The notes beneath the pieces are model-generated. The model saw only the letters and a program-made list of their open reading frames with translations, was not told the DNA's origin and did not search any database. Below, piece by piece: positions 5,373 to 50,919 of a stretch of DNA of 52,176 nucleotides. The number at the start of each line of letters is the position of its first letter. Within the stretch, counting starts at the first letter, position 1. This DNA is from a virus. The stretch covers positions 1-52,176 of IMG/VR virus record IMGVR_UViG_3300036823_000134; one strand, written 5' to 3'. A program made the position numbers and the translations under genes.

Positions 5373-8300
5373 GTGGTCGCGATCGACTGGGTAGTCCCTT
5401 GGGACTATGTTCAGGGTGTGGACACCTTTCCTAAGACGGTGTCCATACCTTCTGCGCTAGTAGGACACAAGTTGTTCTTCCTGGCTGCAGGTTTCGCGAT
5501 TGCTGATGCTTCAAGCTTTACACGACTTGACGCTTATCCTGGTCACGGCAATCAAGATGTTGGAATTTCAGAACTAGTAGCTGCTGGTGGTGAGACGTCA
5601 GTCACCTTCAGTCTTAATGGTAGTGGCGCAAGTTGCTCAGGTGTTATCTTTAGTGTAGGCTCTGGGACTTCGTTTGTGGCGTTTAGTAATAACGATGGTG
5701 GTGCTACAGTTGATGTCACAACCGACTTCCAGATCACTCCGACAACAGATCTTACTGCCACAGGTGATAGTATTCTACTATCTGTCGCATCGGTGAGTTC
5801 GGCTTCCGCCTTCTCGACAGCTAACAGACTTAGGCAGCATGGACCGTACGCCAGGATTCTGCGAGAAGGCGGAAACCAAAGCTTTAGCAGTGAAAAGTTA
5901 ATCTTCCAATGTGCTATTGCTGATGTCAATGCTACAACTAGTTATCCCAGGTCACTTGCTGCAGGTCATTGGCGTGCGACTACCGACTGGCTTGCATCAG
6001 GTGACTGTTTTATCACTCAGGCACTTCTTACTGATACTAGTGGCGTGCCCACAGTATCAGTAGCACCTAATGCGATTGTAGAGGAAAACAGTCTTCCAGG
6101 TACAGACAATGGTAACTACTTCCTGGGAATAGCTGGCACATCACCCAACGTTTCTGGATATACTGATAAGTGTACTTACCAGGCAGGCGATACGGTTAAC
6201 TTCCAAGTCTTCACCGAAGACACCGGAACAGGTCAAGTAGAGATCTATCGTCGAGGTTTTTACAGTCGTCAGTCCTTTGGTGCACGCAGTGTGCTAGGCA
6301 ACCAGGACGGTTATCTAACAGTAACTCCTACAGTGCAGCCTGCACCTACGTTTGATAGTACTACAGGTATGAACTCCTGTGCATGGACAACTAATGCAAG
6401 CTGGACCATACCTTCAGATACGCCTTCAGGTCTATACTATGTCGTTTATCGACGTACAGATATGACAGCTGCAGCATCAGGACACTTTATCGTTAGGCCT
6501 AGTAGTTTTGCAGATAAGTTCGTTTACCTGATCAGTGATGCAACGCACCAGATGTACAATCTCTGGAGTGATCCTGGTGACTTTGGGCCGCGCGATATTG
6601 GCGGCGTATATTCAACTAACTCGCACGACGTATATCAGGCCGGCACGGATCTTGCATTTTCGCAGTTTACAAATCGAGGTTATCAAGTATCGTTTGATCG
6701 ACCATATACTACGCAGTCTAATAATGATACTACGTATATCAACGACGTATGTGTAGGACAGATCTGCTTCTTCGAAGCGCAGGGCTACGATATAGTCTAC
6801 GCATCCGATATGGATTGCATGACTGACGAGCACGTCTTCGACGATGCCAAGGCTATCATCTTTGGCGGACACCATGAATATGTCCATGAGAAGATGTACA
6901 ATGCTTATCGCAACGCTCAGGCTAACGGTGTAGACTTTGCCGATCTTTCTAGTAATACAGCACTCTGGCGTATAGGATTTGATCCGGCAGACACAAGTTT
7001 TCGTAACCCTTTCTGCTACAAGGATACGGGTACTATCACAACAGGTGCAGGTTTCACAGGCGATGGATTTACTCCTGCTGGCGTACTCGACACTGACTGG
7101 ACAGGTACTTGGCGAGATTCACGTTCACTAAATCCCGACATACGACGTGAGAACGAACTGTTCGGACAGATCTTTGTAGCTTCAGGTCCTGCACTGCAGG
7201 TAGCGCAGATCGATCAAGCGTTCCAGAATTCGCCTGTCTGGCGTAACTCTTCTGACATCCTTGCCTTAGGTCCGAGTGCTACTTATTCTAGTACAACGAA
7301 TATGGAAGGATTCGAGCTAGAAAGTCGCGACGGTTCTCTGGGTGAACCTACTAACATAGTTGATCTTTGGCGGCACTTGTACACAGGTCTTCACTTCCTG
7401 ACTAATGATGATGGTTCTACGTACAATGATATAGGCGATCTAGAACTTGGCTGGACACTGCACCGTGTTGATAGTACTGAAGCAAATGGCATTCCTGCAC
7501 CATTCGTCTTCAACGGTGGCGCTTGGCGTTGTACGTGGAGTTTAACGCTGTGGCAGTCAGGAAGGCCTTCTGGGTCTGTTACTGACCTGAATATGCAAAA
7601 TGCGTTCTTGTCTATATTCAATGATATAGGCATGGTTCCTGTTACTCTTCAGTCAATGAAGCCTGGTGAAGATCCTGACGTTACAGATCCCAGTATCGGT
7701 GCTCCTGGTCCAGGTAGAGCTGACGTAGCAAAGGCGTACGGACTATCTGTACCTGATCAGACTATTAATGCGGTAGGTATCTCAAGCTCCGAATCGTTCG
7801 AGAATGTCACTGTCGCGTCTGGCTCGACGAGCCTAACTCCCAGAGGCGTGATTAGTGATGAACGATTCGGAACCGGTACCCTGACTACAAGTGTTACCGT
7901 ACCTCCAGTAGGGATTGTTTCTTCTGGCTCCGTAGGCAACGCTACCTGCACTAGTGTAGTCTTCGTCGAGACTCAAGGAATTCCTTCAGCGGCAGCACTT
8001 GGTAGTCAGGGTACCGCACTATCTACGTCTGTGACACCTCCAGGCTTGAACTTTTCTGGTTATCCGGGCGCTGCGGAGGTTGTGCCTATAATTTCCTCCA
8101 CAAGTGTTTCGACAGGTGAACTAGTAAGTTCTGCCGATTCTGTATTTGGTGTAAACACCATATCACCGGCAGGAGTGAAGAGTAGTGAAGAGTTTGGCGC
8201 GTCACAGACAACAACCCAGAGTTTCATTCAACCATCAGGATCGACATCCAGTGAACAAACTGGATCTCCAACACGCTCAACCACTACAGGAATCCTTCCC

Positions 8301-9476
8301 GGAGGGGTTGGAAGCGTTGAGGGGTTTGGAAACGCTTCGGCTACTGGTAGCAACATCATATCCCCAGGTGGACTCCCAGATGCTGCTCGATTCGGAAACG
8401 GAACTGTTGCAAACCTTGCTGAAGCTCAGCCGGTCGGTATCACGTCACAGGAAACCGTCGGCGCCTCGACGGTTGTGGCGGGGAGTATTGGAATACTTAC
8501 GACAGGTTTGGCAGAACCTGAAACTGTAGGTATGCCTACGGTCGTAGTAGGCCTGGCTACTATAGATCTTGCGGGAGTTGTATCTAGGGAACAACTGGGT
8601 AACACCAGCCTCACGACAAGTATTACATCCAGTGTTAATACAATTCCTACTAGTGCAGAAGTGGGAACGCCAAATGTCTCTGCAAATGTTTCAATCTCCC
8701 CTACCGGAGGACCTTCTTCCGGAGAGGCATTCGGATCTGCCTCTCTGGATGCTGCAGTGGCAGCAGTGGCAGGAAGCGTTACGAGCGAACAAGCGACAGG
8801 CACGCCGCAGGTCGGATCAAACATACGGTTCACCGTTCCAAGCAATGTTGGACCATTCGAGAGCGTGGGCACGCCTAGTGTCAGCATTGGCGCCGTTACG
8901 ATCATTCCAGCTGGGATTAGATCTGAAAATCGTTTCGGTGTCTCATCTGCAACCCCTAGCAGTGTATCCGTTCAGTTGGTCGGAATCACCAGTGATGCAG
9001 CCACTGGCGCCGTCTCGGTCGCAGTACTCGGAGTACTTATCCAACCAGTTGGCATTGTTTCCGAAGAGCATACTGGAAATTCCCGTACAATCCCGGGTAG
9101 CCTCACGATTGCCACTAACGGTATCGATTCAGGCGAGGGATTCTCTGTCACCGACGTTGAACTCACTAGATCAACCCCTGTTGAATCTGTGCCGTCGGGA
9201 GAGCAGCTGGGTAATGTAACCCTAGGCCGTGTGGGTTCTGCTAGTAGTATTAGTTCCGCTGAAGCGTTTGGCATTCCAGCTGTTCATACAGGAGCGGCAT
9301 TCATTGTACCTCCGGGTATATCTTCGTCGATACAGGTAGGGTCCAGCCGCATAAGTTTGGCTATTTCATTCGTGCGCGTCGAAGCTGATGGTGCAGTAGT
9401 CTTGTTCGGTGCAGATATGGGTGAGTTGTTCTATAATGCTGTACCTGTCCTGCTCTGGGAAGGTGAACCAGAATGA
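5373..9476 (+). CDS. Large virion protein with N,N-dimethylformamidase-beta-like domain and C-terminal repeats
   Basis: 1367 residues. Residues 1-220 are beta-rich. From about 237 (ENSLPGTDNGNYFLGI) to about 770 the sequence resembles the large domain of N,N-dimethylformamidase beta subunit-like proteins: SGYTDKCTYQAGDTVNF, VEIYRRGFYSRQ, WTIPSDTPSGLYYVVYRR, and a GGHHEYV segment near 507. About 790-1320 is an array of roughly 18 diverged repeats of 25-32 residues, with consensus I-x-P-x-G-I-x-S-x-E-x-F-G. It could be a fibre or glycan-binding head appendage. The GTG start has GAGG 7 nt upstream. It lies among head genes and not with the tail fibres. Enzymatic activity is unproven. Confidence 0.7.
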   Translation: MVAIDWVVPWDYVQGVDTFPKTVSIPSALVGHKLFFLAAGFAIADASSFTRLDAYPGHGNQDVGISELVAAGGETSVTFSLNGSGASCSGVIFSVGSGTSFVAFSNNDGGATVDVTTDFQITPTTDLTATGDSILLSVASVSSASAFSTANRLRQHGPYARILREGGNQSFSSEKLIFQCAIADVNATTSYPRSLAAGHWRATTDWLASGDCFITQALLTDTSGVPTVSVAPNAIVEENSLPGTDNGNYFLGIAGTSPNVSGYTDKCTYQAGDTVNFQVFTEDTGTGQVEIYRRGFYSRQSFGARSVLGNQDGYLTVTPTVQPAPTFDSTTGMNSCAWTTNASWTIPSDTPSGLYYVVYRRTDMTAAASGHFIVRPSSFADKFVYLISDATHQMYNLWSDPGDFGPRDIGGVYSTNSHDVYQAGTDLAFSQFTNRGYQVSFDRPYTTQSNNDTTYINDVCVGQICFFEAQGYDIVYASDMDCMTDEHVFDDAKAIIFGGHHEYVHEKMYNAYRNAQANGVDFADLSSNTALWRIGFDPADTSFRNPFCYKDTGTITTGAGFTGDGFTPAGVLDTDWTGTWRDSRSLNPDIRRENELFGQIFVASGPALQVAQIDQAFQNSPVWRNSSDILALGPSATYSSTTNMEGFELESRDGSLGEPTNIVDLWRHLYTGLHFLTNDDGSTYNDIGDLELGWTLHRVDSTEANGIPAPFVFNGGAWRCTWSLTLWQSGRPSGSVTDLNMQNAFLSIFNDIGMVPVTLQSMKPGEDPDVTDPSIGAPGPGRADVAKAYGLSVPDQTINAVGISSSESFENVTVASGSTSLTPRGVISDERFGTGTLTTSVTVPPVGIVSSGSVGNATCTSVVFVETQGIPSAAALGSQGTALSTSVTPPGLNFSGYPGAAEVVPIISSTSVSTGELVSSADSVFGVNTISPAGVKSSEEFGASQTTTQSFIQPSGSTSSEQTGSPTRSTTTGILPGGVGSVEGFGNASATGSNIISPGGLPDAARFGNGTVANLAEAQPVGITSQETVGASTVVAGSIGILTTGLAEPETVGMPTVVVGLATIDLAGVVSREQLGNTSLTTSITSSVNTIPTSAEVGTPNVSANVSISPTGGPSSGEAFGSASLDAAVAAVAGSVTSEQATGTPQVGSNIRFTVPSNVGPFESVGTPSVSIGAVTIIPAGIRSENRFGVSSATPSSVSVQLVGITSDAATGAVSVAVLGVLIQPVGIVSEEHTGNSRTIPGSLTIATNGIDSGEGFSVTDVELTRSTPVESVPSGEQLGNVTLGRVGSASSISSAEAFGIPAVHTGAAFIVPPGISSSIQVGSSRISLAISFVRVEADGAVVLFGADMGELFYNAVPVLLWEGEPE
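9227..9240 (+). repeat. Dispersed 14-mer, copy 3 (CCGTGTGGGTTCTG)
   Basis: One mismatch to the consensus (T to C at position 12). It lies near the 3' end of the large virion gene, where it is read as GRVGS. Confidence 0.75.
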
Positions 9477-9867: not shown

Positions 9868-10896
9868 ATGGCTACGATGTCCTTCCTGGTCGATATGGCC
9901 AAGGTACAGCTCAACGAATCCGGGCCCACCTGGATTCAGGGTTTCCCACTGGGCACGTGGCATCACCCAGCGCACGGCGAGATCAAGATCACTCCCGAGC
10001 GTGTCAAGCGGTTCGCCGAGGGTGTTGCGAACCGCGTACGTGGTCAGGATCTGAACATTGATTACGACCACCAGACGGGTGAAGCTGCAGGTTGGGTTCG
10101 TGCAGCAGAAGACCGTGGCAACGATGGCCTCTGGCTCAACGTTGATTTCACGCCGACTGCACGCCAGCAGTTGTCCGAGAAGAAGTACCGATACTTCAGT
10201 CCGGAGTATCAGGATGAATGGGAAAGCCCCGTCAGTAAGCAGAAGTTCACTGACGTACTGTTCGGTGGTGCTCTCACCAATCGGCCGTTCCTCAAGGGGA
10301 TCGTGCCGATCAACCTGTCCGAGGCATTCGCCGAGGCGTTGAAGGGAGATCCAGTGGGACAACCGCCCACGCCGCCGACGCCCCCAGCGCCGACGCCTCC
10401 GACGAATACTCCGCCAGCTCCGGCACCTGTCATGCTGACTGAAGATCAGTTGAAGGAAATGCCCTTCATCAAGACGCTCATGGAGCAGAACAAGACGCTG
10501 ACTGACACGGTCAAGACGTTGGGTGAAGCTCACAAGCTGAGCGAGGCCAAGTCGCAGTTGAGTACTCTCAACCAGCCGACCAACGGTCACGCTCTGTCGA
10601 GTGCTGTACTTGATCAGGCAGCTGTTATGCTAGCAGATCCAAGCAAGGCAGCTTTGGGCATCACGACGATCTTGCAGGCTGTCAGGGACGGTAACGCTCT
10701 AGTTCCTGTAGGTGAGACTGGTGGTCAGCGTACGCGCCACGAAGATCCTGATGCGATCAAGCAGTTCATGGAACTGGTAACCAAGTACCAGACGGACCAC
10801 AAGTGCGACTACGCTATGGCTGCAGCGGCAGTCCAGCGTGAGAACGTACAACTGGCCGAGCGGTACTCCAACGCAGTCATGGCGAAGGAGAACTGA
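9868..10896 (+). CDS. Mu-like I protease / scaffold protein
   Basis: 342 residues. The N-terminal half matches Mu-like prophage I proteins (peptidase U35 group): GTWHHPAHGEIKITPE, then DLNIDYDHQTG, AAGWV, DGLWLNVDFTP, KKYRYFSPEY and LTNRPFLKG. After a Pro-rich linker near 170-190 comes a helical, charged C-terminal part (about 195-340), typical of a fused scaffolding domain. It would guide capsid assembly and then be cleaved. It is followed by the cement and major capsid genes, as in other phages of this type. Confidence 0.85.
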   Translation: MATMSFLVDMAKVQLNESGPTWIQGFPLGTWHHPAHGEIKITPERVKRFAEGVANRVRGQDLNIDYDHQTGEAAGWVRAAEDRGNDGLWLNVDFTPTARQQLSEKKYRYFSPEYQDEWESPVSKQKFTDVLFGGALTNRPFLKGIVPINLSEAFAEALKGDPVGQPPTPPTPPAPTPPTNTPPAPAPVMLTEDQLKEMPFIKTLMEQNKTLTDTVKTLGEAHKLSEAKSQLSTLNQPTNGHALSSAVLDQAAVMLADPSKAALGITTILQAVRDGNALVPVGETGGQRTRHEDPDAIKQFMELVTKYQTDHKCDYAMAAAAVQRENVQLAERYSNAVMAKEN

Positions 10897-11376: not shown

Positions 11377-12369
11377 ATGGCGGTTTACAGTCCTTCGGGA
11401 TCTGGGCAGGTCCACATTGATATTCTGCTTACGCAGATTTCGATGCAGTTCCCGTTGAACCGGAACTACGTGGGTCCCAACCTCTTCCCGCAGGTGACGG
11501 TCCAGAAGCAGTCGGACAAGTACGGCATCTTCGATCGTGAGAACTTCAAGCTCGAGGCGCACGACGTCCGTGCTCCTGGTGATATCGCGAACGAGATTCC
11601 TGGTCTGCGGTTCTCCACAGACACGTACTACTGCAACGAGCACGCTCTGCAGATCGCGATCACGGATGAGGAGCGGACTAACGTCGATGCTCCCCTCCAG
11701 CCCGACATTGACGGTACCACTTTGGTGACTGACCGCATCATGTTGGGTCGCGAGAAGAAGATGCATGACTTGGCAACCACAATCGGTAACTATGCATCGG
11801 GCATGTCTGCTAACTACGCGAGTTCGTCTACTTCGCAGTGGAACGACTACGTGAATTCCAACCCCATCCAGGACTTCCGTACGGCGTGCCGTGCTGTTAA
11901 TGCTAACATCTTCATGGATCCTAACCTGGCGATCATTCCCTACCAGGTCATGTCGTTCCTGGAGGATCACCCGGACTTCATCGAGCGCATCAAGTACTCG
12001 GAGAGGGGAGTCATTACGGAAGAGATCATTGCCACAGTGATCAACATCTCCAATATCAAGGTGCCTTCGGTCGGCTTCTCCAGTGCTGGTACGGGTGTTC
12101 CTGTCACCACGTCGTCTGTTGGTTACATGTGGGGCAAGGATGTCATCATCGCATATGTCCCACCATCGGCAGGTCTCCGTCAGATTAGCTTCGGCTACGA
12201 ATTCGTGTGGCCGATCGGCGGCACGCAGCAGCTCGTGGATCGCTGGCGTGAAGAGCAGCGTGTGTCTGACCTCGTCCGGGTTAGGCGACGCTACGACCTG
12301 AAGCTGACTGGCGGCGAAACTGCCAATCAGCAGCTGGTTGGCTTTCTCTACAAGGCAGCGATCGCGTAG
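11377..12369 (+). CDS. Major capsid protein
   Basis: 330 residues of HK97-like type, placed right after protease and cement. Features include VHIDILLTQISMQFPLNRN, a YVGPNLFPQVTVQKQSDKYG segment, repeated charged helices in the middle (TDRIMLGREKKMHDLATTI) and a conserved end with FGYEFVWPIGGTQQLVDRWR. A strong AAGGAGGAGG ribosome site lies 5-14 nt before ATG, suiting a very abundant protein. Codon use is clean and biased, as expected for high expression. Confidence 0.85.
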   Translation: MAVYSPSGSGQVHIDILLTQISMQFPLNRNYVGPNLFPQVTVQKQSDKYGIFDRENFKLEAHDVRAPGDIANEIPGLRFSTDTYYCNEHALQIAITDEERTNVDAPLQPDIDGTTLVTDRIMLGREKKMHDLATTIGNYASGMSANYASSSTSQWNDYVNSNPIQDFRTACRAVNANIFMDPNLAIIPYQVMSFLEDHPDFIERIKYSERGVITEEIIATVINISNIKVPSVGFSSAGTGVPVTTSSVGYMWGKDVIIAYVPPSAGLRQISFGYEFVWPIGGTQQLVDRWREEQRVSDLVRVRRRYDLKLTGGETANQQLVGFLYKAAIA

Positions 12370-13740: not shown

Positions 13741-14243
13741 TGGCGATCACAGGCATGGTAGTTGATTACGGTTTTCACCCGAGCCCGCTGATTATGGCAG
13801 GCGAGATGGAGACGTTCGGCCTGAACGTTCGATCGTTCCGCGAACCCCTTACGCGTGCTGTCAAGCAGGTCATGATTCCCTCTATCCAACAGAACTTCAA
13901 CGTCGGTGGTCGTCCTGCATGGCAACCTGTCAGTGATGCTACTGACCAGATCAAGTTCGCTGGCGGCTTCAATGGTGGTCCACTGATCCGCACAGGTACT
14001 CTGAAGCGTAATATGGGCTACCAGAGCATGTGGACAATCGACAAGAGTCAGGCAGCGATTCAGGACTTGCCTGAACGTATTGCATACGGAAGTGTACATC
14101 AAGCAGGCTCTTCATCTGGTTCGGGCAGGGGTTCTAACATTCCTGCCCGACCTTTTGCTACGATCCAGGATGCAGACGAAGAACGCATCGAAGATGTCTT
14201 CGCGACCTGGCTCGCCGAAAGAGCGGCGGCTGTCGGATGGTAG
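13740..14243 (+). CDS. Tail completion / virion morphogenesis protein (Mu gpG-like)
   Basis: 167 residues with the hallmarks of the phage virion morphogenesis family: an RTGTLKRNM segment near 83, then IAYGSVHQAG near 118, and IPARPFATI near 136. The family acts at head-tail joining. It overlaps the adaptor stop (TGATG) and the tail terminator start. Confidence 0.75.
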   Translation: MAITGMVVDYGFHPSPLIMAGEMETFGLNVRSFREPLTRAVKQVMIPSIQQNFNVGGRPAWQPVSDATDQIKFAGGFNGGPLIRTGTLKRNMGYQSMWTIDKSQAAIQDLPERIAYGSVHQAGSSSGSGRGSNIPARPFATIQDADEERIEDVFATWLAERAAAVGW

Positions 14244-14994: not shown

Positions 14995-15932
14995 CTACTC
15001 CAGGCATTGGTGGCTCCGGATTCATTGGCGTTGCCATCGAAACTACGTCAGGCACGTACTCACCTCCGACCAAGTTCTTCCCGATCACGTCCGAGACGTT
15101 GAAGCAGATGCAGGACACCCAGTATCGCACTCCGATTCGGCACATGGTCGACATCCTAGGAGCCGTACAGGGTGACGTACACATTGAAGGCGACATCGTC
15201 ATGGAGGCACTGGTCGATGTCTTCCCGTACTTCCTCGACGTATCTCGTTGCACTCTAGTCAAGACGGGTTCTAGTTCTCCCTTCACCTACACTGCAACAC
15301 CCACAGCGGTTGCGCTTCCGACTAAGACAATGTCGATCACTATTGTCAGGAATGGCATTGTGATGGGCTACGTTGGCTGTTCCGTGTCACAGTGGAAGCT
15401 GGAGATCAACAACGGTATCCTACAGGTTACGTGGTCAATGGTAGGATTCAACGAGGCAACTCAGTCCGTTCCGTCGGACACGTACACCAATGGCGTTCCG
15501 TTCGGCGAGGGTATGTACGATGTCGAACTGCCCACAGGGACGCCTGTGTTTGACTCAGACACGTTTGACTTTACGGTCAATGACAATGGCACGCCAAACT
15601 ATCGCATGCGAAGCGATACTGTTGGAGCTTCGTTCATCAACTGGGGAGAACGACAGGTAACGTTCGACTACACTCGTGACTTTCTGAGTCGTGCTGACTA
15701 CGATGCATACAAGGCGTTGTCTGTCTTCGGCTCTACGTTCAAGGCAACACAGAATGCAAACAACAGTATCGCAGTGACATGTCCTGCATCGATCCGTGAT
15801 ACTCACGAGACCAACCTGGACGGACAGGGTAACCTGATCCGCTCGAAGATCGCCTACAAGTCGATGTGGGACGCAGGAACCTCTCGTCCGTACCAGATTG
15901 TAGTGATTACTACCGAGAATATGGTTCCATGA
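14991..15932 (+). CDS. Major tail (tube) protein
   Basis: 313 residues. The pattern of long-tailed phage tube proteins is visible: an N-terminal GIGGSGFIGVAIETTSGTY, a MEALVDVFPYFLD helix, paired beta strands (KTMSITIVRNGIVMGYVGC then VSQWKLEINNGILQV) and a middle domain ending with DRDF-like DYTRDFLSRADYDAYK. It is the last gene before the chaperones and tape measure, as expected. GTG start with GAAGAAGGGG upstream. Confidence 0.8.
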   Translation: MTTPGIGGSGFIGVAIETTSGTYSPPTKFFPITSETLKQMQDTQYRTPIRHMVDILGAVQGDVHIEGDIVMEALVDVFPYFLDVSRCTLVKTGSSSPFTYTATPTAVALPTKTMSITIVRNGIVMGYVGCSVSQWKLEINNGILQVTWSMVGFNEATQSVPSDTYTNGVPFGEGMYDVELPTGTPVFDSDTFDFTVNDNGTPNYRMRSDTVGASFINWGERQVTFDYTRDFLSRADYDAYKALSVFGSTFKATQNANNSIAVTCPASIRDTHETNLDGQGNLIRSKIAYKSMWDAGTSRPYQIVVITTENMVP

Positions 15933-16738: not shown

Positions 16739-19700
16739 ACTGTCAAAAGTTCTTCGTGGCGTCGGCGGATCGATGGGAACTCTTTCGGCTCAGGCCCAGC
16801 AAGCAGCACAGAAGCAAATGGCCCTTGGCAGCGCCATATCAACCGTAGGTGTTGGTATGGCTGCTGTCGGGGCCATTGGTGTCAAATGGCTCGGTGACGC
16901 GGTAAGTACGGCAAAGACGTTTGACACTGCTATTGCACTAGTCAAGACACAGGTTGACAATGTTAATACTAGTCAGCAGCAGTTGGCAACGGTCTCCAAG
17001 AACGTTGCGAAGAGTATTGCAGCGCCAATCGATCAACTGAACGCTTCGCTGTATGACATCTTCTCTTCGATGGATGTTACAGTTCCACAGTCGCAGCAGA
17101 TCCTCACAGGATTTGCTAAGGCAGCTGTTGCCGGTCAGGTCGATGTGCAGACGGCTGGCCGCGCGACGATTGCAATTCTTAATGCTTGGCATCAACCAGT
17201 CTCAATGCTGAGTCAGGACTTGGACGTCCAGTTCCAGCTGGTGAGAAAGGGTGTTGGTACATACCAAGAATTCGCTCAGTCTATTGGTCAGGCGATTCCG
17301 TCTGCGCAGCGAGCAGGTCAGAGTATCCAGACACTAGCTGGTATGCTAGCGTACTTGACTCGTAACGGTTTGAGTACGTCTATGGCAGCAGCATCTGCAC
17401 AGCGCGCCTTGGATGCATTCTCGAACCCGAAGGTTGTCGATCGCCTCAAGGGTATGGGCGTCGCCGTCCTTAATAATAAGGGCGGCTTCAATGACTTTGG
17501 AGTTGTGATTGACCAGCTACAGAAAAAGCTGGCCAACATGACTGAGCCGCAACGTACTGCCGCCTTGCAGAACCTATTTAAAGGCGCAGGCGGTACGATT
17601 CAGGCGATGCGCTTCTACGACACTGTTACGCAGAGTTCAACAGCTGTAAAACAGTTCACTTCACTAACCGACGACATGAAGAACTCTTCCGGCGCACTCA
17701 ATACAGCGTACGGTACCATGTCGAACACGATGACTGCCAAGACGCAGCTGTTGAACAACCAATATCAGCTTCTGAAGGTCAGTGTAGGTAATGCACTGAT
17801 TCCAATCTTGACAAAACTGATTCCAGTCATCCAGGGCATCTTCAACTGGTGGAATAGTCTGTCGGGTAGTACGCAGAAGATTATCGTTTGGATCGTCGCA
17901 GCAACGTCAGCCTTCTTCTTGGTTGGCGGTGCGATTCTCTTTATCGCTGGCACCTTCATTATGCTGAGTGCGGCTGCTGCATTAGCCGACGTTGCTTTAG
18001 CTCCAATCATTCTTACAGTCATCGCAGTCATCGCAGGCCTGGCACTTCTAGGCGTAGCTGTCTATGAATTGATTACGCACTGGAACCAGGTGGCCAGCGC
18101 TGTCAAGTCCGTGTGGGTTCCGGTAGTCAATGCCTTGGGCGCTGCCTGGAACTGGCTCTGGAAGACAATTCTCAAGCCGTTGTTTACATGGCTCTGGAGT
18201 CAGGTAGGCGGACCGCTTACCTCACTCTGGAACTCCATGAAGAGTGACGTCTCGAGTGCAATGGATGCCATTCACCAAGCTGTGACAGGTTCGATCGGCA
18301 AAGTTGGCCAATTCATCAACGAGATGATAGCCAATGTCACTGACTGGTGGAATACACACTGGCAGCAGATCAAAGGCACTGTTCAGATCTTTGTCAACTT
18401 CTGGACAGCGATCTGGCCTTACATGCGAGGCTTCTTCAGTAACATTCTATACGCGATCATGGCTACGTTCCGCAACGTTTGGGACTTGATCGCAGGCATC
18501 TTCCATGATGTATGGGCAGGCATCGTCGGTGTCATCAAGGGTGCATGGGAAATTATTTCTAGTGTCATTCGCGGTGCGATCGACATTATCGAAGGCATCT
18601 TCGGTCTATTCTTCGATATCATTACTGGCAGGTGGGGGCAAGTATGGGGCGACATTGTTAAGATCCTCAAGGGTGTTTGGGAGATCATCCGAGGTGTAGT
18701 GGCAGGTGGCTGGGAGATCATCGAAGCCATCTTCAATACTGGTGGTAGGATTATTGGTTCGGTCTTTACCTTCGCTTGGCGTGAACTAGTTGTTCTCTTC
18801 AAGGCAGGTGTAGGCCTTGTAGGTAATATCTGGGATGGCTTCGTAGCAGGTTTGGAGCAGGCCTGGAAAACGGTTTGGAATTCAATTATCGACTTCTTCA
18901 AGGGTGTTGCACGGAGTATTGGCACTCTTGTTAAGGACCTCGGCAGTGCGATCGGTTCAGCCTGGAAAAGCGTTGAGAGTGCATTCGTTGCACCCATTAA
19001 CTGGGTGATCGACATTGTCATTAACGGTGCACTGATTCCGTTCTGGAATAGTGTTATGAACTACCTAGGACTCCAAGGTTTGTACATGCACGACTTTTCG
19101 AAGATCGGAGGCCATAAGGAAGGTGGCCTAATTTCAGGTGCGGGCTCCGGAACAAGTGACAGTATTCTTTCCTGGCTATCAGACAAAGAGTTCGTTGTTA
19201 ATGCCAAGTCGACAGCACAGTGGCTACCATTCCTACATGCAATCAACAACGGTATGGCACCCGGATTTGCTCAAGGCGGGCAGGTCAATGCTAATGTTAG
19301 TCAGGTTCTAGGAAGTGCAAGCATCTCCAAACAGGCATCGACAGTTATTAGCGATCCATATAACGCTGTTGCATCTAAGGGCAACATAGCTAACAACTGG
19401 CTAGTAGCTGGTGCGACTTCAGGTTTGAGTCTTGTCAATAGAGCAGCTAACTTCCTCGTAGGGAAGATTACTAAATTCCTTGGCAGTATTGGTAATGCAT
19501 TCCGTGCTACGCCAGGTGGTTCGCCTTCAGCTGCACAGTCGACAATGTATCAGTACGCTTCAACTCTGTTCAGCCGCTACGGATGGGCAGCCCGAGATAA
19601 CCTTCCTGCACTGATTAGGTTGTGGACAAAGGAATCCGGCTGGAACCCGTTTGCAGTCAACAAGAGCTCCGGTGCTTATGGTATCCCACAGGCTCTAGGT

Positions 19701-43223: not shown

Positions 43224-43253
43224 ATTATATAGCGGAATCTCGCTTGACATCAA
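43224..43253 (-). promoter_or_regulatory. Minus-strand early promoter
   Basis: TTGATG (43253-43248), 18 bp, TATAAT (43229-43224). Serves the 42954 gene and the operon below it. Confidence 0.75.
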
Positions 43254-45063: not shown

Positions 45064-45093
45064 ATTATATAGTAGTCATTACTGTGAAGTCAA
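45064..45093 (-). promoter_or_regulatory. Minus-strand early promoter
   Basis: TTGACT (45093-45088), 18 bp, TATAAT (45069-45064). The strongest match in the family; it lies between the tRNA-like RNA terminator and the winged-helix gene. Confidence 0.8.
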
Positions 45094-46010: not shown

Positions 46011-46040
46011 ATTATAGCTTAGGACATACTAGGATATCAA
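46011..46040 (-). promoter_or_regulatory. Minus-strand early promoter
   Basis: TTGATA (46040-46035), 18 bp, TATAAT (46016-46011), ahead of the 45470 gene and its downstream RNA. Confidence 0.8.
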
Positions 46041-46085: not shown

Positions 46086-46304
46086 TCAGTCTCGCGCATA
46101 CCTGGCCACCTTGGAATGCCTAACCCAAACAGGCCTTCCCATGACCATGTTGACTCCTAGAGCGCCAAACATAGCTGCTCCACCGAACATCATGATCCCG
46201 AAGGGTGCAAGAACGATCGTGCAGCATAGTGCTGCTCCTACTAGGCAAACAACAGTAGCTACCAGACAGATAAGCAACCCCCCGATAACTTTAACGATGC
46301 GCAT
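46086..46304 (-). CDS. Small membrane protein, unknown
   Basis: 72 residues from ATG 46304 (GGAGG 5 nt upstream). Two hydrophobic helices (about 7-30 and 33-55) and a basic C-terminus. Lies just below hammerhead ribozyme 1. Function unknown. Confidence 0.65.
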   Translation of the reverse strand: MRIVKVIGGLLICLVATVVCLVGAALCCTIVLAPFGIMMFGGAAMFGALGVNMVMGRPVWVRHSKVARYARD

Positions 46305-46317
46305 ATTCACCTCCTCG

Positions 46318-46371
46318 GGACCATCGTCAGGGCGGTCTCAATTCCGCCGACCCCTCACGGGGTTTCGGTCC
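46318..46371 (-). ncRNA. Type II hammerhead ribozyme 1
   Basis: On the minus strand: stem II GGACC, then GAAA, stem III CCCC-GTGA-GGGG closed by the A-U pair, cleavage site GTC (between 46349 and 46348), stem I GGCGG with CCGCC, core CTGACGA, then stem II GGTCC. One T is bulged beside the core (46323). It lies between the 46374 and 46086 genes, ending about 14 nt before a start codon. Confidence 0.8.
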
Positions 46372-46373
46372 AG

Positions 46374-46568
46374 CTACTTACGGATTACTTTCCGTGCGAT
46401 CACAATCGGATCGTCGACGTACTCGGCTGCAAACGGTTTCGCCAACGCATCTGCATGCACTTCGGTGATTGCCTTCAGAACGACAATGACGTCAGTCTTC
46501 CCAGAAGGTCTCTGGCTCTTCTTCCCCTGGAACTTCACTTCCCAGGTCTTGGACGTTAACTTTCGCAT
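46374..46568 (-). CDS. Small basic protein, unknown
   Basis: 64 residues, beginning MRKLTSKTWEVKFQGKKSQR, with a beta strand pair and basic end. The stop is 3 bp before hammerhead 1. Overlaps the 46492 ORF. Family unknown. Confidence 0.55.
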   Translation of the reverse strand: MRKLTSKTWEVKFQGKKSQRPSGKTDVIVVLKAITEVHADALAKPFAAEYVDDPIVIARKVIRK

Positions 46569-46704
46569 GTCTTCTCAGGCTCCTGTAGTCCCAACCGATT
46601 TCTCTGAGCACTTGAATTGCCTGTCTCCGCAACGATACTCCGATATCGTACGGGTGTGCAACAGTGAGTGTATACGTCCTTGGCTGTACTTTAGCGAACC
46701 GCAC
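46492..46704 (-). CDS. Small protein, unknown
   Basis: 70 residues from GTG 46704. The central QAIQVLREIGWDYRSLRRHAKVNV is helical and basic and the tail is acidic. It overlaps the next gene by 77 bp, so its 3' end may not be real. Confidence 0.45.
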   Translation of the reverse strand: MRFAKVQPRTYTLTVAHPYDIGVSLRRQAIQVLREIGWDYRSLRRHAKVNVQDLGSEVPGEEEPETFWED

Positions 46705-46906
46705 GACGCCACTGCTTCTTGGACACGCCGTAAGGCTTGCGGACTCTTGTCTTCACCTTGTTGATGCCCATGTTGTACGTGGATACCTGAACACGCTCTT
46801 CCTTGCGGCCTTGAGCATTCTCCACGAGCAACGACCTGTGTTCGACGATGAAGTGCTTCTTCGAACCTTCGATCTCCTGCAGCTCTAGCGACTTACCGTG
46901 TGCCAT
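46691..46906 (-). CDS. Small basic protein, unknown
   Basis: 71 residues from ATG 46906; longer frames overlap the gene before it. Very basic C-terminus (KTRVRKPYGVSKKQWRRAVR). Possible nucleic acid binding. Family unknown. Confidence 0.55.
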   Translation of the reverse strand: MAHGKSLELQEIEGSKKHFIVEHRSLLVENAQGRKEERVQVSTYNMGINKVKTRVRKPYGVSKKQWRRAVR

Positions 46907-47126
46907 CGGACTGCTCCTCTGCGCGGTTCTTTTCGGTACGCATTGGTAGTGATTCGTACGCCCGTACGGCTGCGAAGTGAGCCTGAGCGAGAGTTGCCAA
47001 CGCAGTTGCCCTTTCGTGATGGAAGATCGTGTGATCAAGATCGATAGACTCCGCTGCGATCTTCAGGCACTGATTCGCTTCGACGAGAAGCTCTTCGCCC
47101 TTGTCGTAGTGTTCGTTCCTGTTCAT
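46893..47126 (-). CDS. Small helical protein, unknown
   Basis: 77 residues from ATG 47126. One long amphipathic helix (EELLVEANQCLKIAAESI) and an Ala-rich second one. Coupled to its neighbours by short overlaps. Family unknown. Confidence 0.55.
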   Translation of the reverse strand: MNRNEHYDKGEELLVEANQCLKIAAESIDLDHTIFHHERATALATLAQAHFAAVRAYESLPMRTEKNRAEEQSDGTR

Positions 47127-47128
47127 CA

Positions 47129-47275
47129 CTACTTTCCAATCGCCGGATTGATGTTGTGTGCGATGTTGATAGCGATCCACTCGAACGCACCTGCGATGGC
47201 TTCGATCACCTGAGGCCACACGATGGATACGATCAGGTAAAGAATCGCAATCAGGCCCAATACTGCCCACTTCAC
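47129..47275 (-). CDS. 48-residue membrane protein
   Basis: Starts at GTG 47275 in a GTGA overlap with the 47272 gene and ends TAG at 47129-47131. Sequence begins MKWAVLGLIAILYLIVSIVW; one transmembrane helix about 3-20 followed by an amphipathic helix. The gap would otherwise be empty, and the overlaps support it as a real gene. Confidence 0.6.
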   Translation of the reverse strand: MKWAVLGLIAILYLIVSIVWPQVIEAIAGAFEWIAINIAHNINPAIGK

Positions 47276-47466
47276 CTTTTGTGCTCCCAGCTCTCGATCA
47301 GCTTACGCATACCTCTGTCATACTCCGGGAAGAAGCTGTAGTGTCCCCAGTTACCTTCCAGGAACTTCTGAGAGATCAGGTAAACGCGTCCATCCTCATG
47401 GGTGAAACGCTTCAGTGCTTGCGCACTGGTTACCTCTGCATCAATTTCTCTTACTAGGTCACTCAT
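47272..47466 (-). CDS. Small protein, unknown
   Basis: 64 residues from ATG 47466 with GGGAGAG 7 nt upstream. Beta-rich (EDGRVYLISQKFLEGNWGHY). Lies directly below hammerhead ribozyme 3, whose 3' stem II is 16 nt before the start. Confidence 0.6.
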   Translation of the reverse strand: MSDLVREIDAEVTSAQALKRFTHEDGRVYLISQKFLEGNWGHYSFFPEYDRGMRKLIESWEHKR

Positions 47467-47481
47467 GACTAACTCTCCCTT

Positions 47482-47531
47482 GAGCTCATCAGCACGGTAT
47501 TGAACCGTGGACGCCTCTCGGCGTTTCGCTC
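47482..47531 (-). ncRNA. Type II hammerhead ribozyme 3
   Basis: On the minus strand: stem II GAGC, GAAA, stem III CGCC-GAGA-GGCG, cleavage at GTC (between 47510 and 47509), stem I CACGGT with ACCGTG, core CTGATGA, stem II GCTC. Every conserved core base is present. Stem III differs from ribozymes 1 and 2 by a paired C-G to G-C swap, which is covariation. Confidence 0.88.
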
Positions 47532-47533
47532 TG

Positions 47534-47737
47534 TCAGCCCTTGAAGTCCGGTTCGTCTTCTGTCTCACGTCCTTCCAGGTTCGCTTTCTCTGCGTCGGTC
47601 AGCTGAGCCTCCTGAATAATTTCGTACCTGCCGTGGTGCTCGTCTTCGGTCGAGAGATCCAACTGGTGTTGGTACGCCTCGACCACATCACCGAAAAGGT
47701 CCTGACAGTCGAGACACTTCAGAATCAACGTAACCAT
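47534..47737 (-). CDS. Small acidic protein with CxxC, unknown
   Basis: 67 residues. LILKCLDCQDLFGD has a CxxC pair; the rest is acidic and polar. Its stop is 2 bp before ribozyme 3 in transcription order. Family unknown. Confidence 0.55.
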   Translation of the reverse strand: MVTLILKCLDCQDLFGDVVEAYQHQLDLSTEDEHHGRYEIIQEAQLTDAEKANLEGRETEDEPDFKG

Positions 47738-47741
47738 CTTG

Positions 47742-48047
47742 CTACTCCTGTCGTCCTCGAACTTTCGACGCGTAGTTCTTACACGTCATTTCGCCACACG
47801 CTCCGTCGGAGAACTTCTTGTGTCTGCACTCTTTGACGATCATCACGAGGGCGAAGTGGTAGAGATCCCAGAGTATGTTCGGATTGCCTGCATGACGGGA
47901 GTTAACGATGTCTTCAGGTGTGACGTCCAGCTGCTGGTAGTAGTGAACGACTGTCCACACGGCTTCATCGTTCAACGGTTCACCATCAGCGTCTGCGGTG
48001 ATCTCCTGCACAACCCAGTTGTGCAATGCAGTGATATCCTGAGGCAT
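47742..48047 (-). CDS. Small protein, unknown
   Basis: 101 residues from ATG 48047. Two helical halves (MPQDITALHNWVVQEIT, DLYHFALVMIVKECRHKKFS), with Cys residues near the end. Family unknown. One-base overlap with the gene above. Confidence 0.55.
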   Translation of the reverse strand: MPQDITALHNWVVQEITADADGEPLNDEAVWTVVHYYQQLDVTPEDIVNSRHAGNPNILWDLYHFALVMIVKECRHKKFSDGACGEMTCKNYASKVRGRQE

Positions 48048-48391
48048 TATGACCAACCCCTCAGTGCATTGAGGCGTGCCTCTTGCTCGTCGCCTTCGGT
48101 CCACTCCGTGAACTCCACATCATCGAGCGTGTGCTCCTGCTTCCGGAGCTTCTCCGTACGCACTGCCTCGTTCGCGACATTGCGGTGGTGCTTGGAGCAC
48201 ATCTTGTCGTGCGCCTTGATCACTGCATTCCTCGACCCGAACACCAGCAACTTACTAGCAGACTTGTTCAGGACGGTGTGATTCGCACTGTTGTCGTAGA
48301 TGCAGAACCTCGCACCATGTCCGTAAAGCTTTCGATCGTCTATCGTCAAGAGCCGGATCTCGTAGCGGCAGGTGTGGTCAACCGCTTCCAT
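48047..48391 (-). CDS. Small protein, unknown
   Basis: 114 residues. A beta-rich first half (CRYEIRLLTIDDRKLYGHG) and helical His-rich second half (KMCSKHHRNVANEAV). It is the first gene below hammerhead ribozyme 2. Family unknown. Confidence 0.55.
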   Translation of the reverse strand: MEAVDHTCRYEIRLLTIDDRKLYGHGARFCIYDNSANHTVLNKSASKLLVFGSRNAVIKAHDKMCSKHHRNVANEAVRTEKLRKQEHTLDDVEFTEWTEGDEQEARLNALRGWS

Positions 48392-48417
48392 CTTGTGAAC
48401 TATTTCGGTTCCTCTCT

Positions 48418-48469
48418 AGGTCTCCTCAGCACGCCTATTAGACGTGGACCCCTCACGGGGTTTCGACCT
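48418..48469 (-). ncRNA. Type II hammerhead ribozyme 2
   Basis: On the minus strand: stem II AGGTC, GAAA, stem III CCCC-GTGA-GGGG, cleavage at GTC (between 48447 and 48446), stem I CACG with CGTG (9-nt loop), core CTGAGGA, stem II GACCT, five perfect pairs. It sits 3 bp beyond the 48472 gene and 27 nt before the next start. Confidence 0.85.
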
Positions 48470-48471
48470 CA

Positions 48472-48666
48472 CTAGATTTCGTTGACTGCTGCAAACCAAT
48501 GTCCGTTGGAGAGCCCAACCTGCACGTTGTAGCTCCAATCCCACGGGACGCCTGCCCAGAACGTGCTACCGTAGAACGCAAAGCTTCCGCTGATGAACAT
48601 GTACGCCAACGCGCAACCGAGAACGATCAAAACCCACACGGACTTTCGTTGCATGACCTTGTTCAT
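48472..48666 (-). CDS. Small membrane protein, unknown
   Basis: 64 residues from ATG 48666, in an ATGA overlap with the previous gene. Hydrophobic segment about 12-30 (VLIVLGCALAYMFISG), aromatic C-terminal half. The 14-mer repeat overlaps codons 8-13 (SVWVLI). Confidence 0.55.
   Translation of the reverse strand: MNKVMQRKSVWVLIVLGCALAYMFISGSFAFYGSTFWAGVPWDWSYNVQVGLSNGHWFAAVNEI
48628..48641 (-). repeat. Dispersed 14-mer, copy 12 (exact, minus strand)
   Basis: Exact consensus on the minus strand, 25 bp after the start of the 48472-48666 gene. Confidence 0.8.
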
Positions 48667-48905
48667 GCTCTCCACCCTTCTCCCATCTGTCCTTTGATCT
48701 GTGACATCGCGGTCAGCATGTCCGATGCTGTCCTGTGAAAGAACGCCATCTCCTCCTGCTCGGGTGCTGTGAGGTGTCGTCCTGCAGCCTTCTTGCTCAG
48801 TACTTCGATACCGTCAAGCACCGCATCCAGTTGCGTTTCGCAAGCAAGGTACACTGGACTGCACATGTGCTCCGAAATCTGTATTTCGCCGTCCATTGTA
48901 TACAT
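48663..48905 (-). CDS. Small protein, unknown
   Basis: 80 residues from ATG 48905, 8 nt after AAAGGAGG. Helix-rich (LDAVLDGIEVLSKKAAGRHL and a following EQEEM stretch). First gene after promoter 48960-48989. Family unknown. Confidence 0.6.
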   Translation of the reverse strand: MYTMDGEIQISEHMCSPVYLACETQLDAVLDGIEVLSKKAAGRHLTAPEQEEMAFFHRTASDMLTAMSQIKGQMGEGWRA

Positions 48906-48959
48906 TGTTCCCACCTCCTTTCAGACGGATAGTAAGTCCCAATCTTTTGCTTTCAATTA

Positions 48960-48989
48960 ATTATATCTGCGACCACAAGGACTAATCAA
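48960..48989 (-). promoter_or_regulatory. Minus-strand early promoter
   Basis: TTGATT (48989-48984), 18 bp, TATAAT (48965-48960). It drives the 48905-to-46086 gene string that carries the hammerhead ribozymes. Confidence 0.8.
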
Positions 48990-49867: not shown

Positions 49868-49896
49868 ATTATATAGTAGTCACTGGGTAATCTCAA
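49868..49896 (-). promoter_or_regulatory. Minus-strand early promoter
   Basis: TTGAGA (49896-49891), 17 bp, TATAAT (49873-49868). Leader to the 49861 start is very short. Confidence 0.75.
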
Positions 49897-50396
49897 CTCC
49901 ATACCCTCCGGTTACGCTTTTTGATGCTCTATATAATTTTTTCGCTACCCTCCGGCTAATCTCGATACCGGCTCATGCGCACTCTGATCGTAGAATTCAA
50001 TTGAAAAAACAGAGCGTCATTCGGTGGATGATCAACGCTTTTACTATGCCGGTATCGATAATAATCAATCATCGCAGCAAGCTAACCTTTTATAAGATTT
50101 ACGGTCCTACTTTTTGGCTTCTGCCAGGAAATTTAGGGGAATCTACAAGAAATTTGTGCTCTGCGAGGTCGTTTTCTTATAGATTCCCATGAAGTCTCTA
50201 GTAGAGGATCATTAGGATCTTACTTTGTGTATTTATGAGGATGTTGTTACTATATATATATAAGTATATAGTAGAGATATGAAAATATCATGTGTTCCCG
50301 GGTTACTACTGCCTCATAAATACACAAATCGCTCTTTTAAAAGATAGTTCTACAGAGACGATCATGAGGCTGCTATATACTAGTAACCCGATATAG
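49897..50396. other. AT-rich non-coding region with four long inverted repeats
   Basis: No convincing gene. Inverted pairs: GATACCGGC 49964-49972 with 50048-50056; GGGAATCTA then AAGAAA 50137-50152 with 50173-50188; a 17-bp pair beginning TTTGTGTATTTATGAGG 50224-50240 with 50312-50328; and CGGGTTACTA 50299-50308 with 50381-50390. CCTCAT of the third can also pair with ATGAGGC at 50364-50370, an alternative fold. TACCCTCCGG occurs twice near 49905 and 49937. It may be a replication origin or an RNA-based regulatory region. Confidence 0.65.
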
Positions 50397-50892: not shown

Positions 50893-50919
50893 GGGGAGGG
50901 TCGGTCGATGACCCTCCCC
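50893..50919 (-). terminator. Intrinsic terminator after the 50928 gene
   Basis: GGGGAGGGTC pairs with GACCCTCCCC (10 bp, loop of 7) and TTTCCTTATTT follows on the minus strand. Confidence 0.85.

Follow-up and report, generated by a model that had tools for sequence, protein, structure and literature searches.

Type II hammerhead ribozymes as probable cistron separators in an early operon of an uncultured tailed phage

Three hammerheads in one early operon

Why do three hammerhead-like elements recur in the gaps between small genes of a single phage operon, and what might they do there? The question is raised by IMG/VR virus record IMGVR_UViG_3300036823_000134, a complete record of an uncultured tailed phage (52,176 bases; the whole stretch is called the window below), in which structural genes occupy the plus strand and replication and early genes occupy the minus strand. 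The elements HH1, HH2 and HH3 are located on the minus strand at the K/L, E/F and B/C junctions of an early operon (genes A to L), and they are probably active type II hammerhead ribozymes acting as cistron separators. Their sequence, structure, homology and placement are described here, and from these we infer cleavage in the cell, a common transcription unit, product ends set by hammerhead chemistry, and a benefit to the phage.

In all three elements the order is stem II strand, GAAA, stem III hairpin, GUC, stem I hairpin, CUGANGA and second stem II strand, with stems I and III closed by loops and stem II open. By sequence, the core CUGANGA and GAAA, and GUC as the NUH ahead of the cut, are intact in each of them. 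The scores listed below are from covariance model R1, described in the next paragraph but one, and the pairings are those of the minimum free energy (MFE) fold.

48418..48469, minus strand: HH3, compact type II; model R1 63.1 bits, E = 6.6e-15; stem II 48469-48465/48422-48418; GAAA 48464-48461; stem III hairpin 48461-48448; predicted cut after C48447; stem I hairpin 48446-48430, loop UAAUA; CUGAGGA 48429-48423
47482..47531, minus strand: HH2, compact type II; model R1 67.3 bits, E = 4.8e-16; stem II 47531-47528/47485-47482; GAAA 47527-47524; stem III hairpin 47524-47511; predicted cut after C47510; stem I hairpin 47509-47493, loop UCAAU; CUGAUGA 47492-47486
46318..46371, minus strand: HH1, type II with bulged U46323; model R1 40.6 bits, E = 8.6e-9; stem II 46371-46367/46322-46318; GAAA 46366-46363; stem III hairpin 46363-46350; predicted cut after C46349; stem I 46348-46344/46335-46331, loop AAUUGAGA; CUGACGA 46330-46324

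The predicted cuts would leave 5' ends at 46348, 47509 and 48446. An earlier reading made from the letters of the window (the sequence-only reading) had given these coordinates, cut sites and element order exactly, and the compensating changes in stems II and III that it quoted are present. On its own, each 52-56 nt stretch adopts a three-way junction, with MFE values of -24.2, -19.2 and -22.0 kcal/mol (z = -2.7, -2.6 and -2.3).

A scanner that demanded the core together with stem thresholds of 5/5/4 bp matched the window three times, whereas the control, 60 Markov resamplings of the window, gave no match. Model R1 was built from 52 viral relatives with the window excluded; its members were chosen for pairing, and the 100% paired cells of its alignment are a result of that selection. 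Searched with this independent model, the window returned precisely the three elements, with nothing else up to E = 10, which supports the type II identity proposed in the sequence-only reading. No further hammerheads were found elsewhere in the window by the scan or by model R1 to E = 10.

Pairing was also assessed by an unbiased pattern scan of viral contigs, in which hammerhead-like letters were sought and no pairing was demanded in stems I and II; all counts are among the matches listed. Of 111 distinct viral matches, 109 had a stem I of at least 5 bp (random 1%) and 107 had, if a 1-nt bulge is tolerated, a stem II of 3 bp or more (random 5%), and the free stem III position was complementary in 111/111. 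The 52 relatives behind model R1 came from these matches. Heavy covariation across the relatives was observed in stems I and II.

A compact type II form overlooked by Rfam

The sequence-only reading had expected a match above threshold to the Rfam type II model, and this expectation failed: RF02276 (Hammerhead_II) gave 24.8 bits for HH2 and one further match of 18.1 bits against a cutoff of 37, and HH3 was not listed. Viral type II hammerheads fall into two groups. In the long form, stem I is about 22 nt, stem II is mostly 3 bp, and loop I pairs with the tail that follows stem II far more than with shuffled tails, whereas in the compact form (121 distinct) stem I is 17-19 nt, stem II is 4 bp, and loop I-tail pairing is no higher than in shuffled tails. 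No pseudoknot was found in HH1, HH2 or HH3, the longest Watson-Crick run between loop I and tail being 2 in each. The window hammerheads are missed because the Rfam model describes the long pseudoknotted form. They have in common with RF02276 the core and the circular permutation, in which stem II is open and stems I and III are closed, but stem II is 4-5 bp instead of 2-3, the loop I-tail pseudoknot is missing, and the score is below cutoff.

The same pattern was observed outside the window. Rfam detected 0/18 compact hammerheads in six loci; it found none in phage Wentworth (MH019216) or in loci L117, L046, L131, L143, L145 and L147, and 9/9 in phage R4. Rfam was therefore set aside as an arbiter, since it finds the long form and overlooks the compact relatives, including those of the cultured phage Wentworth.

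Among the compact relatives, an unpaired U occupies loop I position 1 in 66/67 and an unpaired A stands just before stem II in 65/67. These conserved bases suggest a contact between the stem I and stem II arms unlike that of the long form. HH2 has both bases, the A of HH3 can pair with a U, and HH1 has another loop type. In a 2011 hammerhead survey, about 40% used a pseudoknot, so that the others must use something else or nothing.

The loop type of HH1 (RAUYGAGA) also occurs in viral contigs L068 and L128-L130, where the bulged U is present too, and in genome contigs of a Melainabacteria metagenome-assembled genome, Saccharopolyspora and Lentzea; L131, L143 and L145 are among the loci with it. 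Together, the HH1 loop and its flanks define a small subgroup. A separate observation concerns locus L057 (524-590), where type I and type II readings appear to use one GAAAC hairpin and alternative folds may compete.

Placement of hammerheads among relatives

In the window, each predicted cut lies 24-25 nt past a stop codon and 43-55 nt ahead of the next start. To place the relatives, the stop of an open frame with 40 codons or more and a ribosome site with a start 11-30 nt downstream were scored, and random positions served as control. Of 190 type II hammerheads, 77% start -6 to +10 nt from a stop codon, and in 70% a ribosome site and start follow 11-30 nt downstream; random positions gave 6% in each case. 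By looser limits, both conditions held together in 71% (random 3%). The deposited annotation of phage Spernnie (MT701594) agrees, with most hammerheads between the end of an annotated coding sequence (CDS) and the next annotated ribosome site. In genomes the exact pattern is seldom found (17 stretches, against more than 119 in viral contigs).

In most relatives the stop abuts or overlaps stem II, and UAG often gives the first stem II base. This closeness would fit a regulated switch, in which a ribosome ending beside stem II, or another signal, blocks folding, so that the cut reports upstream translation and alters the fate of the downstream message; regulated cleavage of phage hammerheads was suggested in 2011 (PMC3088659). 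However, type III hammerheads begin 11-30 nt past the stop yet occupy the same kind of junction, and neither an additional conserved domain nor an alternative fold was seen. In addition, 182 different gene-family pairs were found around the 205 hammerheads with both neighbours, which favours a constant over a gene-specific role, and such a switch is considered unlikely. Because of these 182 pairs, the hammerhead is not tied to particular genes and is better described as a general separator. At first the hammerheads seemed to travel with the gene downstream of them, but this impression weakened after duplicates were removed.

The wide variation of neighbouring genes around similar hammerheads could also mean that they mark gene-cassette boundaries, spreading with exchangeable early genes or guiding their recombination, with cleavage secondary; stem III stretches of 18-19 nt held in common could aid recombination. 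Against this, the strong covariation preserves an RNA fold and not a DNA sequence, the core is invariant, and three different topologies are found at the same position. A cassette-boundary role is therefore improbable.

The three topologies were compared further. When the same letters were used to scan for type I, the result was as full as for type II, among the matches listed. For type I, 59% were placed at a stop and 53% had a start 11-30 nt downstream, and loci with several copies made up 46%, compared with 45% for type II. A scan that favoured neither type I nor type III gave 106 and 33, respectively; type III, which is also frequent, is intergenic too, but it lies 11-30 nt past the stop. 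Where a stop occurs within 60 nt, the cut was at least 15 nt beyond it in 96-99% of types I, II and III, and the median stop-to-cut distances were 43, 25 and 33 nt, respectively. Since types I, II and III all lie between genes, the property that they have in common is a cut between cistrons. The proposal that type II prevails as the sole type with hairpins on both product ends was rejected as a general reason, because types I and III fill like junctions.

The sequence-only reading had regarded three hammerheads in one operon as special, a view that is not supported. Among the matches listed, about 45% of viral type II loci carry at least two hammerheads, some of them 7 or 11-12, and phage R4 has nine; moreover, clusters and a processing proposal were published in 2011 (PMC3088659). 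The commonest case is the single hammerhead (63/119 viral loci among the matches listed). This count bears on a further proposal, that the pieces between ribozymes, with 5'-OH and 2',3'-cyclic phosphate ends, are closed into RNA circles by an RtcB-type ligase or by the reverse reaction. The ribozymes do flank gene blocks as direct repeats, and the expected end chemistry fits ligation. However, besides the prevalence of single copies, the stop and start distances fit linear messages, and spliced or circular products of clustered hammerheads were sought in the 2011 study and none was detected (PMC3088659); circles are thus very improbable.

Layout of the operon

The genes of the operon are tightly packed. 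At 8/11 junctions from A to L, the genes overlap or are separated by at most 4 nt (range -77 to +4), and the hammerhead junctions B/C, E/F and K/L are the sole sizeable gaps (80, 67 and 69 nt). Promoter-like sites ending at 48960 and 46011 flank the unit. Pfam and PHROGs searches of the operon genes gave no convincing match; hydrophobic character was judged by eye. All the features below are on the minus strand, and the genes are open frames.

48960..48989, minus: promoter-like site TTGATT-18-TATAAT at the operon head, 10/12 consensus bases; putative function
48663..48905, minus: gene A, 80 amino acids (aa)
48472..48666, minus: gene B, 64 aa, N-terminal half hydrophobic
48047..48391, minus: gene C, 114 aa, weak ribosome site
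47742..48047, minus: gene D, 101 aa, start overlaps the C stop
47534..47737, minus: gene E, 67 aa
47272..47466, minus: gene F, 64 aa
47129..47275, minus: gene G, 48 aa, mostly hydrophobic, overlaps F
46893..47126, minus: gene H, 77 aa, weak match to PHROG 16141 only
46691..46906, minus: gene I, 71 aa, overlaps H
46492..46704, minus: gene J, 70 aa, overlaps I
46374..46568, minus: gene K, 64 aa, overlaps J
46086..46304, minus: gene L, 72 aa, hydrophobic, ribosome site GAGGAGG
46011..46040, minus: promoter-like site TTGATA-18-TATAAT, 11/12 consensus bases, heading the next unit (gene M, 45967-45470)

Gene B ends in UAG, followed by an in-frame UGA whose A is the first base of HH3 stem II.

Five strong sigma-70-like promoters were noticed on the minus strand (43224-43253, 45064-45093, 46011-46040, 48960-48989 and 49868-49896), with 10-11/12 consensus bases and a spacing of 17-18, which apparently head successive early units. 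Among these units, hammerheads occur only in that between 48960 and 46011.

Proposed mechanism and the points against it

In the proposed mechanism, RNA polymerase would start near 48953 and transcribe the operon from A to L as one RNA. On emerging, each ribozyme would fold and cut at its GUC, so that the transcript would be divided into four: A-B (about 0.5 kb), C-D-E (937 nt), F to K (1161 nt) and L. The stem III hairpin, carrying a 2',3'-cyclic phosphate, would form the 3' end of an upstream piece, and a downstream piece would have a 5'-OH and the stem I hairpin at its start. A terminating ribosome would no longer cover the RNA at such a stop-to-cut distance, as judged from established ribosome footprints. 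Because the cuts fall outside the space of the terminating and the initiating ribosome, every piece would be a complete message. The benefit thought most likely is that blocks of small early genes would no longer be tied together by translational coupling and by shared RNA decay. The processing of polycistronic RNA put forward in the sequence-only reading is supported by the independent model and by placement in hundreds of relatives, and cleavage itself is the step that we infer.

Several points weigh against this separator role. The single transcription unit of genes A to L is predicted from consensus promoter matches. The ribosome site after HH3 is weak (AGAGAGGA, about 17 nt before the AUG of gene C), which corrects the sequence-only reading. 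HH1 is the weakest of the three, with an extra unpaired U (46323) between CUGACGA and stem II, beside the core, a second correction to that reading. The stop-to-cut distance is partly fixed by geometry in types I and II, and only type III (37 cases) provides a free test. Hairpins on both product ends do not supply a general reason, since type I and type III products differ and yet come from the same kind of junction. Finally, 4/18 consensus hammerheads did not cleave in the 2011 study (PMC3088659).

The HH1 bulge and the lack of an Rfam match above threshold would also be expected if the elements were inactive relics or chance look-alikes. However, E values of 4.8e-16 to 8.6e-9 under the independent model, the absence of chance matches in the 60 resamplings, the intact cores, and the recurrence of the bulged form in relatives make this extremely improbable.

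Beyond the window, it is tentatively proposed that hammerheads could serve as general modular punctuation of phage polycistronic RNA, with the cut of all three topologies placed beyond a ribosome that is terminating (at least about 18 nt from the stop) and ahead of the following ribosome site. A major part of it may be a compact type II class that lacks the pseudoknot, is held by a contact between the U of loop I and the A at the stem II end, and is overlooked by Rfam.

Comparison with known systems

Type II hammerheads, their abundance in bacteria, and prophage clusters flanking genes, together with a processing proposal, were reported by Perreault et al. in 2011 (PMC3088659). The clusters were the Agrobacterium tumefaciens triple around ardA and those of Azorhizobium caulinodans and Clostridium scindens; three clusters were cleaved in vitro and one in E. 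coli. These clusters resemble the window in having several hammerheads per polycistronic phage transcript, around single genes or short blocks. They differ in that cleavage in the window is predicted, all three of its hammerheads are type II, and the common pseudoknot is missing.

Phages R4 (NC_019414) and Spernnie are also alike in carrying type II hammerheads between small early genes, with nine in each early region, but theirs are the pseudoknotted form that Rfam detects, whereas phage Wentworth carries the compact form. RiboJ (the hammerhead of the satellite RNA of tobacco ringspot virus, sTRSV, plus a hairpin) raised transcript level about twofold in E. coli (PMC6206723), and its self-cleavage likewise leaves a downstream message starting with a hairpin; however, it was engineered from another hammerhead and sits after a promoter, not between cistrons, so that it is an analogy and not a family relation.

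The role of hammerheads in phages has been open since 2011, and a 2017 review described their role in prokaryotes as open (PMC6155905). No literature on hammerheads in Streptomyces phages or on a placement rule was found, most subscription journals being outside the search. The window is a clear new example of a known arrangement; its hammerheads belong to a compact form not captured by current models, and their placement follows a rule that hints at function. This rule (stop, ribozyme, ribosome site, start, with the cut at least about 18 nt past the stop), the varied gene pairs and the similar arrays in cultured Streptomyces phages such as R4 together make the role testable. For annotation, the compact type II form is missed by standard RNA pipelines, and in known phages hammerheads have been annotated as small genes or gene starts.

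In locus L124 (phage R4, record positions 30000-51071), the annotated mini-genes gp60.1, gp67.1 and gp75.1 (11763-11846, 14126-14218 and 17074-17175) overlap hammerheads and are probably not genes, and the start annotated for gp72, an OCR-like antirestriction gene, is upstream of a hammerhead at 15760-15809. In phage Spernnie (locus L126, 5139-5252), two tandem type II hammerheads, 16 nt apart core to core, precede one gene, the deposited start of CDS 075 lying inside the second; similar tandems were observed in L029 and L047. Saccharothrix and Lentzea genome contigs (L136, L139, L142 and L146) hold arrays of up to 8 type II hammerheads within 8 kb, probably prophages or integrative elements.

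Relatives and other features of the phage

The primase of the window phage is about 29% identical to primases of Arthrobacter, Streptomyces and Curtobacterium phages and to one Stenotrophomonas phage primase. A nucleotide search of the hammerhead region against phage records gave no match, relatives sought through gene M or gene O were not confirmed, and the primase relatives L001 (most of a 24 kb contig) and L002 gave no significant hammerhead match. Locus L117 has genes M, O and P in common with the window phage (38-50%) and carries one compact hammerhead about 1.4 kb upstream of M. On its minus strand (10211-10323), an Rfam tRNA match extends over 113 nt, much longer than a normal tRNA, which may reflect an insertion, an intron or a chance extension.

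Three further features of the window were noted. A long AT-rich imperfect inverted repeat (50119-50206, minus strand) and a 10-bp GC-rich hairpin with a short T-rich tail (50893-50919, minus strand) are located between early genes. On the plus strand, 5373-9476 encodes a 1367-aa protein whose C-terminal half resembles, by eye, many degenerate repeats of about 30 residues (P.GI.S.E..G).

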